From the NCBI GenBank assembly GCA_031082285.1, contig JAVHLK010000052.1, positions 1-34,023 on the forward strand: a stretch of DNA of 34,023 nucleotides. Reading direction: 5' to 3'. Of this stretch, positions 1 to 6,760 are shown in pieces. A program made the translations under genes and the position numbers. The DNA comes from Desulfomonilaceae bacterium. Lineage in GTDB: Bacteria; Desulfobacterota; Desulfomonilia; Desulfomonilales; Desulfomonilaceae. The notes below the pieces were generated by a model. That model was given only the letters and a program-made list of their open reading frames with translations, made no database searches and was not told where the DNA came from. Each line of letters begins with the position of its first letter. The stretch's first letter is position 1.

Positions 1-147
1 ATACCCGGCCTTGATCATTTTTCTGAAGAGACTCTGGAGTTGCCGATACGTCAGATTATACTTGAGCATGAAAAGGTTGTCTTCCAACCCGGACCTGATG
101 TCCTCCAACACCTCTTTGGCACTGATTTTCAATGCCGGCTTAGCCAT
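1..147 (-). CDS. N-terminal fragment of a helix-turn-helix-like repeat protein (cut by window edge)
   Basis: The minus strand is open from an ATG at 147 to the window edge and gives 49 residues beginning MAKPALKISAKEVLEDIRSG. A purine-rich GAAGAGGG stretch about 8 bases upstream can serve as ribosome binding site. The fragment matches, position by position, both repeats of the membrane protein at 1492-2496: a basic/Ile start, A-x-E, then I/F-R-S-G-M/L, an acidic residue, L-x-x-x-Y-N/S-L/I/V, R-x-L-x-x-L-F-R/K-K and a glycine about 5 residues on. The pattern predicts two or three short helices of helix-turn-helix type. I do not recognise a named family and cannot see the C-terminal part, so function is unknown. 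The reading frame is well supported by this internal homology. Confidence 0.75.
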   Translation of the reverse strand, partial: MAKPALKISAKEVLEDIRSGLEDNLFMLKYNLTYRQLQSLFRKMIKAGY

Positions 148-314
148 CCGACGCCCTCTTCCCGATCTCTGACATTCGACGTTTCGGACCTCTTTGCCAA
201 ATCTAAACCTATCCACCGGCTATTTCAATCTCAATATCCCGGACCGAGTGGGTGCCTCGCCGGCCTGCCCTCGTTCGGCGTCCGGTAGGAAGGTCTTCGA
301 CTCACGGCCAAAAG

Positions 315-345
315 CGTTTTCCGATTCGGAAAACGATGCTACAAT
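315..345 (+). promoter_or_regulatory. Palindrome overlapping a putative promoter of the glutaredoxin-like gene
   Basis: Positions 315-323 (CGTTTTCCG) and 327-335 (CGGAAAACG) form a perfect 9-bp inverted repeat with a 3-base centre. TACAAT at 340-345 resembles a sigma-70 -10 box, and the matching -35 position falls inside the palindrome, although no good -35 hexamer is seen. The start codon it would serve is at 399. The arrangement resembles an operator covering a -35 region. An RNA hairpin is the alternative reading. Confidence 0.35.
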
Positions 346-398
346 TGCCGAATTCCAGATTGGAAGGACCGCCGTTCTGAGAATTGGAGAGACACTCT

Positions 399-647
399 AT
401 GGAAATCTGTAAGTTGTACAGCCTTAGCACATGCAGCCACTGCAAGTCCTGCAAGAGATTTCTGGGAGAATGTGGGATTGAATACGAGTTCACGGATGTT
501 GACCTGTTGCCCGACGAGGATCGTAACGACGTAATCGAGGAAATCAAGCAGCTGACCGCAAGGTGTGCGTTTCCTACGATCGTGATCGGAGACAAGGTAA
601 TCGTCGGATTCAAAGAAGACGAGATCCGGGCCGCACTGGGGATGTAA
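399..647 (+). CDS. Glutaredoxin-like thiol-disulfide oxidoreductase
   Basis: This 82-residue protein has a glutaredoxin fold pattern. A first beta strand (CKLYSLS) leads into a C-S-H-C redox motif at residues 12-15. A cis-proline segment (AFPTIVI) follows in the second half, then a G-F-x-x-x-E-I motif near the C terminus. Length is normal for small bacterial glutaredoxins/NrdH-like proteins. Start chosen at ATG 399 because GGAGA at 386-390 lies about 8 bases upstream; an in-frame TTG at 384 overlaps that site. Additional cysteines at 4, 18 and 24 are unusual for the family and could allow metal or glutathione-independent chemistry (inference). It is probably a cytoplasmic reductant of disulfides or ribonucleotide reductase; the partner is not evident from the neighbours, and it appears monocistronic. 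Confidence 0.85.
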   Translation: MEICKLYSLSTCSHCKSCKRFLGECGIEYEFTDVDLLPDEDRNDVIEEIKQLTARCAFPTIVIGDKVIVGFKEDEIRAALGM

Positions 648-987
648 GCATTGCCCCATATTGCCCATGTGTGAATCGGTATGAGGGTTCTGTAGCAGCC
701 GGCCTCTCGGGTGGTTTCGCGCGGTTGCCGCCTTCCCGAGTGGCACGTAATGGACAGATCATGGGTATGAATTGGTGTCGTTTCGATGTATGTCTCCTGA
801 ATGGAGCAGAGCCGCTTCGGGTTACGGATGGGGGGCTTTGGGGGGATAGAGTCTTCCCCCAAATTACGGCGCAACGAGCGATCTTCATACCCCATCTCCG
901 AGGCGAAGCCCTGGAGGGCCTGCCGGCGGGCAAGGACTTTCATGTTTCGTTGTACCTTTGCCGGCATGATGGTTCAGGTGTAAGACA
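648..987. other. Gene-free stretch with one hairpin
   Basis: No convincing coding region is seen on either strand; the open frames present lack ribosome binding sites and recognisable domains. An 8-bp inverted repeat, TTTGGGGG at 837-844 and CCCCCAAA at 856-863, could form a hairpin with an 11-base loop. It lacks a T-run, so it is not a clear terminator. Confidence 0.4.
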
Positions 988-1353
988 GTGCAGTTCCGTC
1001 TCTTTTTCGAACATAAGGGAAGCGGTTTTCGGACCCTCTTGCTGCTGGAGTTCCTCTACGAAGAGGAAACAGACTGGTACGAAGTCCGAGTGTTCAGGGG
1101 AGAAGAGATCATCGGCTACGTTCACGGCTACGCGAATCGTGGATGGACCCCGCAAGTCAACAATATCTGGGTTGCGGAGACGTATCGTCGACAGGGAATC
1201 GGGTCGTTCATGATGTCGAAGATCGAGGAGTACTTCGGTCAGATTCCCTTACCGGCCACGCCCATAGAAGACAACACGGCGGCCCGCGGGTTCTGGAAGC
1301 TTTATATGAGTGGCTCCCGGGTCCGAAACAATGAGGATGAGCCATTGAAGTAG
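988..1353 (+). CDS. GNAT-family N-acetyltransferase
   Basis: A 121-residue protein with the acetyl-CoA binding signature of the GNAT superfamily: a beta strand NNIWVAETYR followed by R-R-Q-G-I-G-S (Q/R-x-x-G-x-G/A pyrophosphate loop) and an amphipathic helix MMSKIEEYF. A later segment with DNTAARGFWKLY matches the usual GNAT motif where an aromatic residue ends the acyl-CoA site. It is shorter than the common 140-170 residues. The GTG at 988 is the first usable start after an in-frame stop at 967-969, so the N-terminal strand may be minimal. The upstream AGGTGTAAG is only a weak ribosome binding site. The acceptor substrate cannot be predicted; the gene stands alone between the glutaredoxin and the repeat protein. 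Confidence 0.75.
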   Translation: MQFRLFFEHKGSGFRTLLLLEFLYEEETDWYEVRVFRGEEIIGYVHGYANRGWTPQVNNIWVAETYRRQGIGSFMMSKIEEYFGQIPLPATPIEDNTAARGFWKLYMSGSRVRNNEDEPLK

Positions 1354-1415
1354 GTGTGTTGCGGCCGGTGTCCGCCGTACCTGGAGATTCACCGTGATTT
1401 TTCGCGGCAGGAGTT

Positions 1416-1505
1416 ATGATGGTTCAAGAGCGTATTGAAGCGAGTGCTGCGCACATTCGTTCAGCGTTTCAGGGTGACTACTCCGTCCGGGATGAATCCC
1501 CATAA
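1416..1505 (+). CDS. Short leader peptide overlapping the next gene (tentative)
   Basis: A 29-residue frame starts at ATG-ATG (1416) with CAGGAG five bases upstream, the best ribosome binding site in the area, and ends at TAA 1503-1505. It reads MMVQERIEASAAHIRSAFQG and continues 9 residues. The ATG of the repeat protein (1492) lies inside its end, so translational coupling is possible. Alternatively it is the true N terminus of that protein separated by a frameshift. No homology is recognised. Confidence 0.35.
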   Translation: MMVQERIEASAAHIRSAFQGDYSVRDESP

Positions 1506-2496
1506 CCCGCCCATTAACGAACGCCGCGGCACGCGTATGGAGACGCGAGTGGGGGAAAGGCCAAGACTGACCGTCAATGCTCGTGAGGCTGTCCGTCTCT
1601 TCAGGTCCGGCATGAGTGACGTGGACCTGATCAGAAGGTACAGTATTTCTGCGCGGAGCCTTGAACGACTCTTCAAGAAACTCCTCGACGAGGGCGAGAT
1701 CGACAAGGCCGAACTGAACGGAAGGCTCTACAAGTCCGATAGGTCTCACATCGTCGACGTGGTCTCCCACACGGTCCTCAGGCGGCCGAAGTCCAAGAAG
1801 AAAATCAGAATCAGCGCGGGAGAAGTCGTACGGCTCATCCGATCGGGAATGAGCGACATCGAACTGATGGACCGGTATAATGTCTCCGCTCGGGGTCTTG
1901 ACCGGCTCTTCAGGAAGCTCATGCAGCGGGGAGACATTGACCGGGAAGACTTGGAACAGAGAAAGCGGGCGTTCCATTGGGCCGACATCGCGTACGTGAG
2001 ATCTGAAGGACAGTCGCCGGAATCTCTCGAAGAAGAGGACTTAGAGGCTGATGACGATCGTACGGGATTTCGCGACTTCCCTGCAGAGCATAAAGTCCTC
2101 ATATCCGCGTTGCTCGGCGCCCTCTGTGGAATACTGCTTACCGCGTTGTTCTTCGTGTCCGTAGCGGGTTGGGAAAAGACGCGGGACCTCGCGGCCGGCC
2201 CCAAGAGCGTCGCACCATTGATGGACGGGTCCCCGGATCCCCTCGATGCGGCGGTGCAACAGATGATCTCGACTCTGGAGTCGATCGCCCGCGGTGACGA
2301 CCCGCCGGGAAATGCCGATGGGGGAGAGCGATCGCCCCAATACGAGCAATGTCTGAAAGACTGTGACAGAGACCACACGCGCGGTGATGATGCGGAAAGG
2401 GCACTCTGGGTGAACTGTAGGAAGAGTTGTGTGGCGCTGCACAGCAAGCGGCTGAGAGAGATACGATCGTTATATCAACGTCCCGCGTTGTGGTGA
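1492..2496 (+). CDS. Membrane protein with two helix-turn-helix-like repeats and a twin CX3C tail
   Basis: With the ATG at 1492 the product is 334 residues; in-frame alternatives are TTG 1435 and ATG 1537, none with a strong own ribosome binding site. Domains: repeat 1 at about 24-78 and repeat 2 at about 104-158, closely similar to each other (both contain RSGMSD, then L-x-x-x-Y, then L-x-R-L-F-K/R-K-L) and to the fragment at 1-147. An acidic linker follows (SLEEEDLEADDD). One hydrophobic segment at about 202-224 is a probable transmembrane helix. The C-terminal part of about 110 residues carries four cysteines, C287, C291, C309 and C313, as CX3C-17 residues-CX3C. Likely topology (inference): repeats in the cytoplasm and the cysteine pair outside, where disulfides could form a helical hairpin. 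The family is not recognised and function is unknown. Confidence 0.8.
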   Translation: MNPHNPPINERRGTRMETRVGERPRLTVNAREAVRLFRSGMSDVDLIRRYSISARSLERLFKKLLDEGEIDKAELNGRLYKSDRSHIVDVVSHTVLRRPKSKKKIRISAGEVVRLIRSGMSDIELMDRYNVSARGLDRLFRKLMQRGDIDREDLEQRKRAFHWADIAYVRSEGQSPESLEEEDLEADDDRTGFRDFPAEHKVLISALLGALCGILLTALFFVSVAGWEKTRDLAAGPKSVAPLMDGSPDPLDAAVQQMISTLESIARGDDPPGNADGGERSPQYEQCLKDCDRDHTRGDDAERALWVNCRKSCVALHSKRLREIRSLYQRPALW

Positions 2497-2675
2497 TGAT
2501 TGTCCGGACCGTTGACTCGAACCGGAATGCTCCGCTGTGGTGATTGCGAACAGCGGGCGCTGTGGAATGCGACGCGGCCCGGCGGAACGCCGAAGGCGGT
2601 TTTCCCCGGCACCGCGCGGGTGCTTCCGGCGACGTCTGAGCGGGTTTAGAACGTCGCGTGCGAAAGGATCGTTTC

Positions 2676-3494
2676 ATGCCAGGTAAACGGGTATTCTCGT
2701 TGCTCCTGCTTACCGCCCTTGTGGCGGGTCCCTGGTGCCCACCGGTCGTTGACGGCGAACAGACGGGATTTACCGTCCCTCGAACAGCTCCCCTGTACCA
2801 GGCTCCGCCCTGGGAATATCGCGACAACAGGGCCATCGTCATCGTATTCGAAACCACCCCCGACATCCTGACCGAACTCGTCCCCGAACCTCTGGTTCCT
2901 CATGCGCTCAATTACGCGTTTGCATACATCGGCAGGTACAACCTTGAGAGCCCGTCGAAGCTGACGTATCACGAGGCGGGCATCGGCATTCCTTCATCCT
3001 ATGAGACGACCCAAGGCAAGTTCGCCGCATTCATCTACTCGGACAAGGTCATGCCGTTGGCCGCAGGACGCGAGATCTGGGGATCGCCCAAGAAAGACGC
3101 AGTGATTCAGTTCAAAGAGGACGGCAAGCGGGTCACCGCCACGGTCTCACGTGGAGGGAGAGCCGTTATGCGGGCAACGTTGAGCAAGGACAGGAAACTC
3201 GACCCGAAGATGGGTTGGCCCGAAGCCCCATGGTTTTCACTGAAGCTCGTCCCCTCGGTGGAGAAAGATGCTCGACCGGCCGTCATGCAGATTACGTCGA
3301 CAACGGTAAGGGATCGATTCAAGGAACTGTATGCCGGAAAGGCGACTTTGGAATTTGATTCGACCCCTGACGACCCGCTCGGCAAGATGAAGGTCCTGGG
3401 ATTGGTTTCCGCCCAATTCGCCGTGTACGACTTTGACATTGGTTACGGCGAAATTCTCCACGACTATCTGGCCGAAGCCGAACGCAGACGATGA
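2676..3494 (+). CDS. Exported acetoacetate decarboxylase-family protein
   Basis: A 272-residue protein. Residues 1-27 form a signal peptide: MPGKR, then a hydrophobic core VFSLLLLTALVAG, then a polar region before EQTGF. The mature part resembles the acetoacetate decarboxylase (ADC) superfamily. The key segment is GREIWGSPKK, residues 131-140; K139 corresponds to the Schiff-base lysine of ADC and K140 to its neighbour that lowers the pKa. A YHEAG segment at 98-102 supplies a glutamate typical of the active site. ATG 2676 is chosen because GAAAGGA lies 8 bases upstream; GTG 2658 would add six residues. Classical ADCs are cytoplasmic, so export is odd. ADC-like proteins also include other enzymes, so decarboxylation of acetoacetate is not established. 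Neighbours give no pathway hint. Confidence 0.75.
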   Translation: MPGKRVFSLLLLTALVAGPWCPPVVDGEQTGFTVPRTAPLYQAPPWEYRDNRAIVIVFETTPDILTELVPEPLVPHALNYAFAYIGRYNLESPSKLTYHEAGIGIPSSYETTQGKFAAFIYSDKVMPLAAGREIWGSPKKDAVIQFKEDGKRVTATVSRGGRAVMRATLSKDRKLDPKMGWPEAPWFSLKLVPSVEKDARPAVMQITSTTVRDRFKELYAGKATLEFDSTPDDPLGKMKVLGLVSAQFAVYDFDIGYGEILHDYLAEAERRR

Positions 3495-3866: not shown

Positions 3867-6116
3867 ATGATAAGGCTCACCGATCTCTTCCGAGACTTGC
3901 CGATCAGCCTGAAGCTGCTGCTCTCCTACTCGTCCGTCTTCATGGTCACCATCCTCCTGGGCGGTCTGGTTATCTATCACTTTGTCCGCAATGCCATCGA
4001 AGCCAACATAGAGAGCGAACTGCACAATACCACGACGACCATCCTTAGCATGGTTCGTACCGCCGCGAACACGTCGATCAAGAACCATTTGCGCGCGGTT
4101 GCCGAACAGAACCGAAAGATCATAGAACTCATTCACAGTCGTCAGAAAGAAGGGTGGATGACCGAAGATGAGGCGAAATTGCAGGCTCGCCAGATCGTTT
4201 TGAGTCAAACGATCGGCAAGACGGGATACATCTATTGCGTGGACAGTTTCGGCAAGGCACCCGTACACCCCAACCCGGGAGTGCAAGGGAGAAGTTTTCT
4301 TCAGCACAAGTTCGTGCGAGATCAGATACAAATGAAGGAAGGGTACCTCGAATATGAATGGAGGAACCCCGGTGAGGATCACAAGAGGCCCAAAGCACTC
4401 TACATGACCTACTTCGAGCCGTGGGACTGGATCATTTCCGTCTCGTCCTACCGAGAGGAATTTGCCGAGCTTGTCAAGGTTGACGATTTCCGCGACAGCA
4501 TCCTGGCCCTGAGATTCGGCAAGACGGGATACTCGTTCGTGCTCGACAGCAAAGCCAACGTCATCGTCCATCCCATACTGCAAGACAGTGTTCTCGATGC
4601 AACCGACGCGCAAGGCAACCGATTCGTTCATAAAATCATTAACGTGAAACGGGGCAAATTGACCTATTCCTGGAAGAACCCGGGTGAAGAGTCCTTCCGA
4701 GACAAGCTGGTCATCTTCGACTACATACCCGAGTATGACTGGATTGTTGCTTCATCGTGCTATCTGGACGAATCGTACGCGGCACTGACACGAGTGAGGA
4801 ACATCGTATTCGCCACGGTGATAGGGACCCTGCTGCTGGTCATACCCGTCACCTTGGTCATCAGCGGCAACATATTGAGGCCTCTCAAGTCATTGATGAA
4901 TGGTTTGACTTCACGCCGGTCCGGAGACCTGACGGTTCGCATGGAGGTCGGCTCTGAAGACGAGTTGGGCCAATTGGCCAGGTACTTTAATGAATTCATG
5001 AACAAAATCGAAGGATACAAAAACAAGCTGTTGGAGGAAATCCGGGAGAGGAGCCAAACCGAGGAAGCCTTGCGGCTTTCCGAAGAGATGTTCTCCAAGG
5101 CATTCCATTGCAGTCCAAGCGGGATGATCATTGCTTCGATCAGAAACGGCCGCGTGATCAATGTGAATGAAAGCTTCTTGCGTTTCACCGAGTATTCGCT
5201 TTCCGAAGTGCACGACAAGTCCCTCCTGGACCCTCATTTTGTGATGGATACGGACACGGCCGGGGCCCTGCTCGATGAAGTGCGCCGAAACTCCCGGCTG
5301 GTAGGTCGCGACCTACGGTACTACACATCCTCCGGAGAGGCTCGATCCGGGGTGATATCAGCCGAACTCATCGAGCTTTGGGGTGAGGAATGCATGCTGG
5401 CCGCGCTGGAGGATCTCACCGATTCCCAGCGCTTGGAAAGGGAAATTCTCCACATCAGTGAACGGGAACATCAGAAGATCGGGCGCGATCTTCACGACGA
5501 TCTGTGTCCGCACTTGATAGGGGTGGAAGTGCTCAGCACGGTTCTCGAGCAGAAACTCAACGGCAGGTGTCCGGCCGAAGCTTCCGATGCGGCCGAGATC
5601 CGTAAACTCATTCAAGACTCCATTCACAAACTTCGCAGATTGGCGAGAGGTTTGTGCCCCGTCGATCTTGGCGACGAGGAGTTCGGCTCGTCACTGGCCT
5701 CTTTGGGGCGCTATGTCGAGGACATTTTCGGCGTTACATACCATCTTCAATGCGATGTGCCCATCGTCGTCCACGATCCTACGGTAGCCGGCCATCTGTA
5801 TTACATTGCACACGAAGCCGTTCACAACGCGGTCAAACACTCCGGAGCGGAGAACATCCATGTGAGTTTTACGTCGGAAAACGGTTTGCTCGAACTGAAG
5901 ATTAGAGATGACGGCCGCGGAATTACGAACGCGGACTCCTCCAACGGAATGGGACTCAGGATCATGAACTATCGGGCGAGGAGGATAGGAGCCTCCATCG
6001 AAATAGAAAGAGATTCGCGGGGCGGCACGTCGGTGACTCTGAAAATCAAGGCGTCTGACTGCAGCATTGACCGCGGGGAAGGACCGAATCACCAATGGTC
6101 GGAGCTAAGGTGCTGA
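3867..6116 (+). CDS. Membrane sensor histidine kinase with tandem Cache, HAMP and PAS domains
   Basis: A 749-residue kinase of the NarX/DegS (HisKA_3, HPK7) type. Order: transmembrane helix at about 17-39; two extracytoplasmic Cache-type units, each with a K-T-G-Y start, a V-H-P segment and a Y-x-W-K/R-N-P-G-E motif; a second transmembrane helix at about 311-335; HAMP to about 390; PAS at about 405-525; dimerisation helix with the phosphoacceptor in GRDLHDDL (H543); and an ATPase domain with NAVKHSG, DDGRGI and NGMGLRI boxes. ATG 3867 follows GGGAGA. The end overlaps the response regulator by 22 bases, so the two are co-translated. Cache domains of this kind usually bind small organic acids or amino acids, which fits the carboxylate-uptake genes downstream (inference). 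Confidence 0.93.
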   Translation: MIRLTDLFRDLPISLKLLLSYSSVFMVTILLGGLVIYHFVRNAIEANIESELHNTTTTILSMVRTAANTSIKNHLRAVAEQNRKIIELIHSRQKEGWMTEDEAKLQARQIVLSQTIGKTGYIYCVDSFGKAPVHPNPGVQGRSFLQHKFVRDQIQMKEGYLEYEWRNPGEDHKRPKALYMTYFEPWDWIISVSSYREEFAELVKVDDFRDSILALRFGKTGYSFVLDSKANVIVHPILQDSVLDATDAQGNRFVHKIINVKRGKLTYSWKNPGEESFRDKLVIFDYIPEYDWIVASSCYLDESYAALTRVRNIVFATVIGTLLLVIPVTLVISGNILRPLKSLMNGLTSRRSGDLTVRMEVGSEDELGQLARYFNEFMNKIEGYKNKLLEEIRERSQTEEALRLSEEMFSKAFHCSPSGMIIASIRNGRVINVNESFLRFTEYSLSEVHDKSLLDPHFVMDTDTAGALLDEVRRNSRLVGRDLRYYTSSGEARSGVISAELIELWGEECMLAALEDLTDSQRLEREILHISEREHQKIGRDLHDDLCPHLIGVEVLSTVLEQKLNGRCPAEASDAAEIRKLIQDSIHKLRRLARGLCPVDLGDEEFGSSLASLGRYVEDIFGVTYHLQCDVPIVVHDPTVAGHLYYIAHEAVHNAVKHSGAENIHVSFTSENGLLELKIRDDGRGITNADSSNGMGLRIMNYRARRIGASIEIERDSRGGTSVTLKIKASDCSIDRGEGPNHQWSELRC

Positions 6117-6760
6117 TTGTCGAGGATCATCCCATTTTCAGGATGGGCCTGAAGCAACTCATCAACCAGGAAAGCGAACTCGAGGTGTGCGGTGAAGCCG
6201 ATGACGTGGCCGGAGCCCGCAAGGCCATTGCAGCCATTGAGCCGGACATAGCCATCGTGGACCTGTCGCTCAACAACAGCAACGGCATGGACTTGATCAA
6301 GGAGTTGTCCTGCAGGGACAAGCAGATTCCCGTGGTGGTATTGTCCATGCACGATGAGAAAATCTACGCGGAACGTTGCCTACAGGCCGGAGCCAAAGGC
6401 TACATCATGAAGCAGGAAGCCTCGCTTGCCGTAGTCAAGGCCATCCGCACCGTTCTCTCCGGAAACTGTTACGTCAGCGAGAAGGTCATGACTCAGGTCA
6501 TAAGCAGGCTTCAGGGGGACAACGATCCGGCGGGGAGTTCGCCGCTCGCCGTCCTCACCGACCGGGAGCTGGAAGTGTTCCAATTGGTCGGCAGGGGACT
6601 GACTTCCGGTGACATTGCAAGACGATTGAACATCAGCGTCAAGACCGTGGGCACATACAGAGAACGGATAAAGGACAAGCTCGGTTTCAAACGTTGCGGA
6701 GAACTGGTGAGACTTGCAGTTCTGTGGACCGAGAACCAGGATCGGGCGAAACCCGAGTAG
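6095..6760 (+). CDS. NarL/FixJ-family response regulator
   Basis: A 221-residue regulator with an N-terminal receiver domain: acidic pair E10-D11, phosphoacceptor D56 in AIVDLSL, a conserved S/T region (VVLSMHD) and lysine in AKGYIMK. A C-terminal LuxR-type helix-turn-helix follows (about 148-212), with LTDRELEVFQLVGRG, then ISVKTVGTYRERIKDKLG. It overlaps the kinase gene by 22 bases and is its obvious partner. Likely action: phosphorylation drives dimerisation and binding upstream of target genes. The nearest candidate target is the liv-type cluster starting at 7555, about 800 bases downstream on the same strand, but no binding site was identified. A 6-bp hairpin (6757-6762/6768-6773) sits on the stop codon and lacks a T-run. 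Confidence 0.95.
   Translation: MVGAKVLIVEDHPIFRMGLKQLINQESELEVCGEADDVAGARKAIAAIEPDIAIVDLSLNNSNGMDLIKELSCRDKQIPVVVLSMHDEKIYAERCLQAGAKGYIMKQEASLAVVKAIRTVLSGNCYVSEKVMTQVISRLQGDNDPAGSSPLAVLTDRELEVFQLVGRGLTSGDIARRLNISVKTVGTYRERIKDKLGFKRCGELVRLAVLWTENQDRAKPE

Follow-up and report, generated by a model that had tools for sequence, protein, structure and literature searches.

RodZ crosses the membrane once and, like SepH, carries a domain of helix-turn-helix (HTH) fold on a cytoskeleton or division protein. In SepH, this HTH motif binds FtsZ (PMC7968930). ToxR and CadC exemplify another layout, that of the membrane-tethered regulators (PMC8517210). Here we describe a repeat of about 53 residues that occurs three times near the start of a 34,023-nucleotide contig of a Desulfomonilaceae bacterium (GCA_031082285.1, JAVHLK010000052.1), which was analysed over its whole length and is called the window below. 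Two copies lie in tandem at the N-terminus of a predicted single-pass membrane protein of 334 residues (1492..2496, plus strand), hereafter the window protein, and the third lies in a truncated small gene on the minus strand (1..147, ATG at 147), which is cut by the contig end and retains the 5' part of a stand-alone copy. The window protein resembles ToxR and CadC in its predicted layout, an N-terminal cytoplasmic HTH, one membrane helix and a C-terminal periplasmic segment, whereas it differs from them by an unrelated, wingless HTH present in two to five tandem copies among orthologs, by a short C-terminal region with a twin CX3C motif and by an action on DNA that is only presumed. Membership of the ToxR/CadC family itself was rejected, given the lack of a Pfam match to Trans_reg_C (the OmpR-type winged HTH) and of strands in the structural model. 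The repeat is also distinct from the RodZ and SepH domains, since it belongs to another HTH sequence family and occurs in multiple tandem copies, with no link to MreB or FtsZ seen. As judged from its predicted structure, it is a new family within the HTH fold. Among the genomes searched it is restricted to one bacterial family, inferred to be Desulfomonilaceae, and most of its carriers have amplified it to about 30-100 copies.

The repeat, its distribution and its predicted fold

A sequence-only reading of the window had proposed one uncharacterised HTH-like repeat used three times in two nearby genes. A profile built from 28 copies located elsewhere in the genome, all window copies being excluded, recovered exactly three copies in the window, namely one in the minus-strand gene (1-129, 57.7 bits), copy 1 of the window protein (1570..1728, plus strand, 60.0 bits) and copy 2 (1807..1965, plus strand, 67.7 bits). 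No further copy is present in the 34-kb window, the next six-frame match reaching 3.0 bits; the best of 1000 shuffles of the window protein scored 7.0 bits with the same profile. The features noticed initially, R-S-G-M/L, a central Y and L-F-K/R-K, are indeed those of the family consensus, xIxAxExxxDxRSGMxDxxLMxKYxLSxxGLxSLFxKL. The count of three, exact for the window, nevertheless understated the extent of the family, which comprises about 68 copies in about 51 open reading frames (ORFs) of this genome (G000, 5.6 Mb in 314 contigs, the window being all of contig C262). Pairwise search of G000 matched 64 places with E <= 10, and for about 45 of these E was below 0.01; a 31-copy profile gave about 70 places at E <= 0.01, the best at 7.7e-25. 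Of the latter, 68 copies in 51 ORFs were examined further. The mean identity between paralogs is 34%. An undescribed domain thus outnumbers the GerE (5) and TetR_N (19) domains of the same genome. Elsewhere in G000, four different repeat ORFs are found within 9 kb (L067, C254:22000-31500), one of them with three copies around a zinc ribbon.

Local duplication, likewise suggested at the outset, is apparent within one gene only. In the window protein, each of the tandem copies is closest to the other (53% identity), and an intragenic duplication accounts best for this pair. For the minus-strand copy, copies on contigs C11, C280 and C6 (56, 53 and 51%) are closer than the neighbouring gene (47%), so that a duplication between the two genes finds no support.

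At least two strong copies (E <= 1e-6) were detected in 9 of the 18 genomes searched from this bacterial family, with 2, 30, 34, 47, 50, 58, 63, 64 and 99 copies; at E <= 1e-3, the counts per genome reach 103. The other nine have no copy at E <= 1e-6, and one of these (G002) shows a single match at 9.8e-5. A further 24 genomes of the class were searched and yielded no copy. When 395 genomes were sampled evenly across the phylum, the only positives were three genomes of this family and one marginal match, in G338; the latter was discarded as a family member, the match being the winged HTH of an Rrf2-type regulator (a name read from its sequence). Phyla other than Desulfobacterota were sampled only through a narrow peptide pattern from a five-copy alignment, which hit three related loci among the genomes of 84,980 species, two titled as Desulfomonile tiedjei metagenome-assembled genomes (MAGs) and one as a Deltaproteobacteria MAG. 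No repeat was seen in viral contigs, plasmids or phages. The lineage restriction envisaged by the first reading is thus borne out by the profile searches, and for a single family of Desulfobacterota; within the genomes searched, this restriction is firm, as are the anatomy and the family itself. Since G005 is a two-contig genome, the amplification is not due to contamination or assembly.

The repeat is rightly called uncharacterised, as no Pfam or NCBIfam model matches it above cut-off. Our literature search returned no description of it, which is not proof of absence, and nothing linking Desulfomonile with PilZ or with a lineage-specific expansion. The best Pfam match of the window protein is DUF433 (17.6 bits versus a cut-off of 23.6), and the sub-threshold matches of the repeat are mostly HTH families (HTH_45, DUF433, MCM_WH_arc, HTH_28, MarR_2), of which HTH_45 (6.8e-5) and DUF433 (4.3e-5) appear as weak matches in repeat-bearing host proteins. 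The end of the repeat weakly resembles SHOCT, but membership of that family was rejected (PF09851, 14.0 bits versus a cut-off of 27). Comparison of the profile with PDB sequences gave weak matches only; in the best two (2ma3, E 0.02; 4egy, E 0.2), a winged HTH aligns over helices 2 and 3. The weak sequence matches to winged HTHs (2ma3, AraR, HTH_45, DUF433 and the Rrf2-type regulator of G338) all share one register.

AlphaFold2, run on copy 2 with a 12-copy alignment (A3) as input, predicted four helices (8-16, 21-28, 32-45 and 50-58) and no strands, with a mean predicted local distance difference test (pLDDT) of 86.4 and a predicted template modelling score (pTM) of 0.65. With Foldseek and VIA-align, the best PDB matches of this model are nearly all HTH domains, none at E <= 0.001 and with Z up to 6.4; they include ArsR-type 1y0u (Z 6.4), Lrp-type 2w25 (Z 5.7), DosR/ComA/NarL, DeoR, MarR and DUF433. 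The predicted structure thus contains an HTH core, and no known non-DNA-binding family claims the repeat. Collectively, model and matches support an HTH-like fold with a three-helix core, as first proposed. The repeat would share with the winged HTHs of Rrf2, ArsR, Lrp and AraR, and with DUF433, a core of helix 2, turn and helix 3 in the same register, on the basis of weak profile and fold matches. Unlike them, it lacks a wing and has a fourth helix apparently held by charged pairs; it stays below every Pfam gathering score, belongs here to one bacterial family and is not confined to transcription factors. The core is conserved among 67 copies, most notably at D10, R12, G14, K23 (K or R in 64 of them), Y24, S27, E48 and R52. 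Positions 17-52 (D17-R52) and 12-48 (R12-E48) are among the strongest covarying pairs, with weak statistics drawn from related paralogs, and are compatible with charged contacts holding helix 4.

The window protein and other hosts of the repeat

The window protein may start at ATG 1537 instead of 1492, as suggested by the short leaders of its orthologs. Its two copies are separated by a linker (1729..1806) with the motif S-x-x-S-H-x-V, read from ortholog sequences in the variants SQQSHVVEL, SQRSHMVEL, SQRSHIVEL and SQLSHFVEL. Hydropathy places a single predicted membrane helix (2095..2169) after the second copy, in line with the initial description, and a G-x3-G in this helix is invariant in five orthologs (alignment A6). 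The C-terminal region (2170..2493), predicted to be periplasmic, has an end conserved among orthologs and contains a twin CX3C motif (C-x3-C ... C-x3-C, 2350..2430), whose four cysteines are invariant in the same five sequences; no Pfam family was found for this tail. The C-terminal 142 residues alone were sufficient to find the orthologs in four other genera (G005, G010, G008 and G006; E 5e-21 to 1.5e-8), which carry 2, 2, 5 and 2 repeats. The number of repeats therefore changes, as seen in the five-copy ortholog at L097:4206-5993 (minus strand). Since most orthologs carry basic residues ahead of the membrane helix, the repeats are predicted to be cytoplasmic and the C-terminus periplasmic. 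Structure prediction of the tandem pair (pLDDT 68, pTM 0.37) was too weak to define the arrangement of the domains.

Membrane tethering, put forward from the sequence alone, fits the window protein and its orthologs but not the family at large, because only about 8 of the 51 repeat ORFs have a predicted membrane segment. In G000, the repeat is found alone, in proteins of 85-95 residues, or in one to three copies fused to PilZ, receiver (REC), PAS plus HD-GYP, zinc ribbons, pentapeptide repeats, a BamB-like propeller, AIM24, Yip1, a protein kinase or membrane helices. It thereby connects about 50 otherwise unlinked proteins per genome, and probably does so as well in the type species of Desulfomonile, a genus of dechlorinators. 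Promiscuous small modules such as zinc ribbons and SHOCT are likewise short domains that occur in fusion with proteins of many unrelated kinds, membrane proteins often among them. The repeat differs from them in being restricted to one family in these data while reaching about 100 copies per genome.

Pfam (PF07238) recognises 11 PilZ fusions above cut-off among the repeat ORFs, to which reading of the sequences adds more, and 11 of the 12 PilZ matches of G000 fall on repeat ORFs. The usual signature for binding cyclic di-GMP (c-di-GMP), RxxxR followed by [DN]x[ST]xxG, is present in 16 repeat-PilZ ORFs. Across the family, genomes with at least 30 repeats have 6-17 PilZ matches versus 0-2 in the others, whereas GGDEF counts contrast much less (2-10 versus 1-7). 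Furthermore, a GGDEF cyclase gene directly adjoins a repeat-PilZ gene on the same strand in four genera (G003, G008, G009 and G010; L123, L124, L125 and L126), the cyclase being REC-GGDEF in three of the four pairs. In G001, about 360 bases separate a REC-GGDEF gene from a gene of REC-repeat-repeat type that ends in a PilZ-like tail. As gene content, neighbourhood and motif agree, the link between the module and c-di-GMP signalling is well supported at these three levels. Undescribed, numerous, restricted to one family and tied to c-di-GMP receptors, the domain lends itself to studying how a lineage assembles signalling of its own.

Several individual arrangements were also recorded. The small genome G009 keeps just two repeats, both located in repeat-PilZ genes, so that this combination may represent the module's core use. 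A Desulfomonile MAG encodes a PAS-PAS-repeat-repeat-PilZ-like protein (L060:3864-6077), which unites a sensor, the module and a c-di-GMP receptor in a single polypeptide. On contig C77 of G000, a repeat-only ORF (L027:1423-1689) overlaps the 3' end of a gene for a GGDEF cyclase. By eye, no PilZ was recognised in the three following frames, and this copy seems to have lost its PilZ or never had one.

Candidate roles of the repeat

The reading that we favour, by a narrow margin and at not quite an even chance, is that the window protein acts as a membrane-tethered one-component regulator whose target is most likely DNA. In such a scheme, a new family-restricted module of HTH fold would have multiplied across the genome to become part of many signalling proteins. 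One of these would hold two copies (orthologs have 2 to 5) on the cytoplasmic side of the membrane, joined by the GxxxG helix to the periplasmic segment. The four invariant cysteines of this segment could form a hairpin with two disulfides that senses a condition of the envelope, and the state of the segment would set the pairing of the membrane helices, GxxxG pairing the subunits; this pairing would in turn position the tandem HTHs on their cytoplasmic target. We infer DNA as the target, redox or ligand control, and dimerisation. In the soluble relatives, the module would be the output of receiver or c-di-GMP-responsive PilZ input domains, and the REC-repeat-repeat and REC-repeat-repeat-PilZ-like proteins do show the layout of response regulators. 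A comparable case is MrkH, a c-di-GMP-dependent transcription activator with a PilZ receptor domain and a presumed action on DNA. MrkH, however, is not built from the repeat, whereas the repeat-PilZ proteins place PilZ after one to three HTH-like repeats and are only supposed to act on DNA.

Several observations weigh against a DNA-binding regulator. The fold matches remain below Z 8 and, according to the warning of the tool, may reflect only a common arrangement. The residues exposed on helix 3 vary among the orthologs of the window protein. The net charge of the repeat is near neutral (mean +1.0, range -6 to +7). The periplasmic location of the tail is predicted from charge bias only. Finally, the BamB-like propeller, Yip1, pentapeptide repeats, AIM24 and protein kinase would be odd partners for transcription factors. 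As a test of DNA binding, net charge was set aside, because the repeat does not differ from the TetR_N and GerE domains of the same genome taken together (p = 0.97), the mean being +0.2 for 18 TetR_N and +4.2 for 5 GerE domains. Conservation of the recognition helix does not discriminate either, its exposed face being, over 67 copies, about as variable as the other exposed positions.

The main rival is an HTH-fold module for protein-protein docking, as in RodZ (MreB) or SepH (FtsZ), through which about 50 proteins per genome would join a common scaffold or partner, with the membrane protein as a multi-copy anchor. The very diverse partners, from zinc ribbons, propeller and kinase to membrane domains, fit this idea, as do the excess of the repeat over GerE and TetR_N, its nearly neutral mean charge, a consensus Q/S/K on helix 3 common to many paralogs, and the SepH precedent. 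In addition, 2xvc, among the better structural matches, is an ESCRT-III recruitment domain. On the other hand, sequence and structure matches are mostly to DNA-binding HTHs, fusion to receiver and PilZ domains gives proteins laid out like transcription regulators, there is no known partner, and the equally neutral TetR_N domains deprive the charge of its force as an argument against DNA. We regard docking as a serious possibility that is somewhat less probable than not and only slightly behind the regulator.

A bolder reading is a regulatory network private to one family, with about 30-100 modules in each genome, based on an HTH that the family invented or captured. Much of it would be controlled by c-di-GMP through cyclase and repeat-PilZ pairs, and it would include an envelope- or redox-sensing membrane protein with 2 to 5 DNA-binding modules depending on the genus. 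This broader picture is more doubtful.

A nucleoid anchor, in which the tandem repeats would hold the chromosome at the membrane through DNA binding of low specificity, is improbable. The predicted HTH fold and the 2 to 5 tandem copies on a membrane protein are what it calls for, but positive charge is neither strong nor consistent, membrane segments are confined to a small minority of the host ORFs, and the four invariant cysteines of the tail suggest that it serves in sensing or structure in the periplasm. The least probable view, in which the repeat has no common function, was spread by domain shuffling and was co-opted copy by copy, would suit the highly divergent paralogs and diverse partners but fits poorly with the conserved core and the apparent charged pairs R12-E48 and D17-R52, with cyclase/repeat-PilZ gene pairs that persist across genera, and with a window protein kept as orthologs in five genera.

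Neighbouring genes of the window

Between the two repeat genes, the window contains a glutaredoxin gene (399..647, plus strand; PF00462) and a GNAT acetyltransferase gene (988..1353, plus strand; PF00583). G005 keeps this neighbourhood, with an opposite-strand stand-alone repeat gene, glutaredoxin (79% identical), GNAT acetyltransferase (68%) and then the ortholog of the window protein (31%). Its counterpart of the truncated gene is a complete ORF of 87 residues with one repeat, 61% identical (L095:1950-2210, minus strand); since this counterpart is retained in the syntenic block, the truncated gene of the window represents a conserved one-domain protein. PADLOC gave nothing meaningful. Downstream of the window protein, 2658-3494 encodes an acetoacetate decarboxylase-family protein with a signal-like sequence at its N-terminus. 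In the region 3867-6760, the gene of a Cache-HAMP-PAS histidine kinase (HisKA_3) overlaps the next gene, which encodes a receiver-GerE response regulator; the two form an ordinary two-component pair of NarL type.

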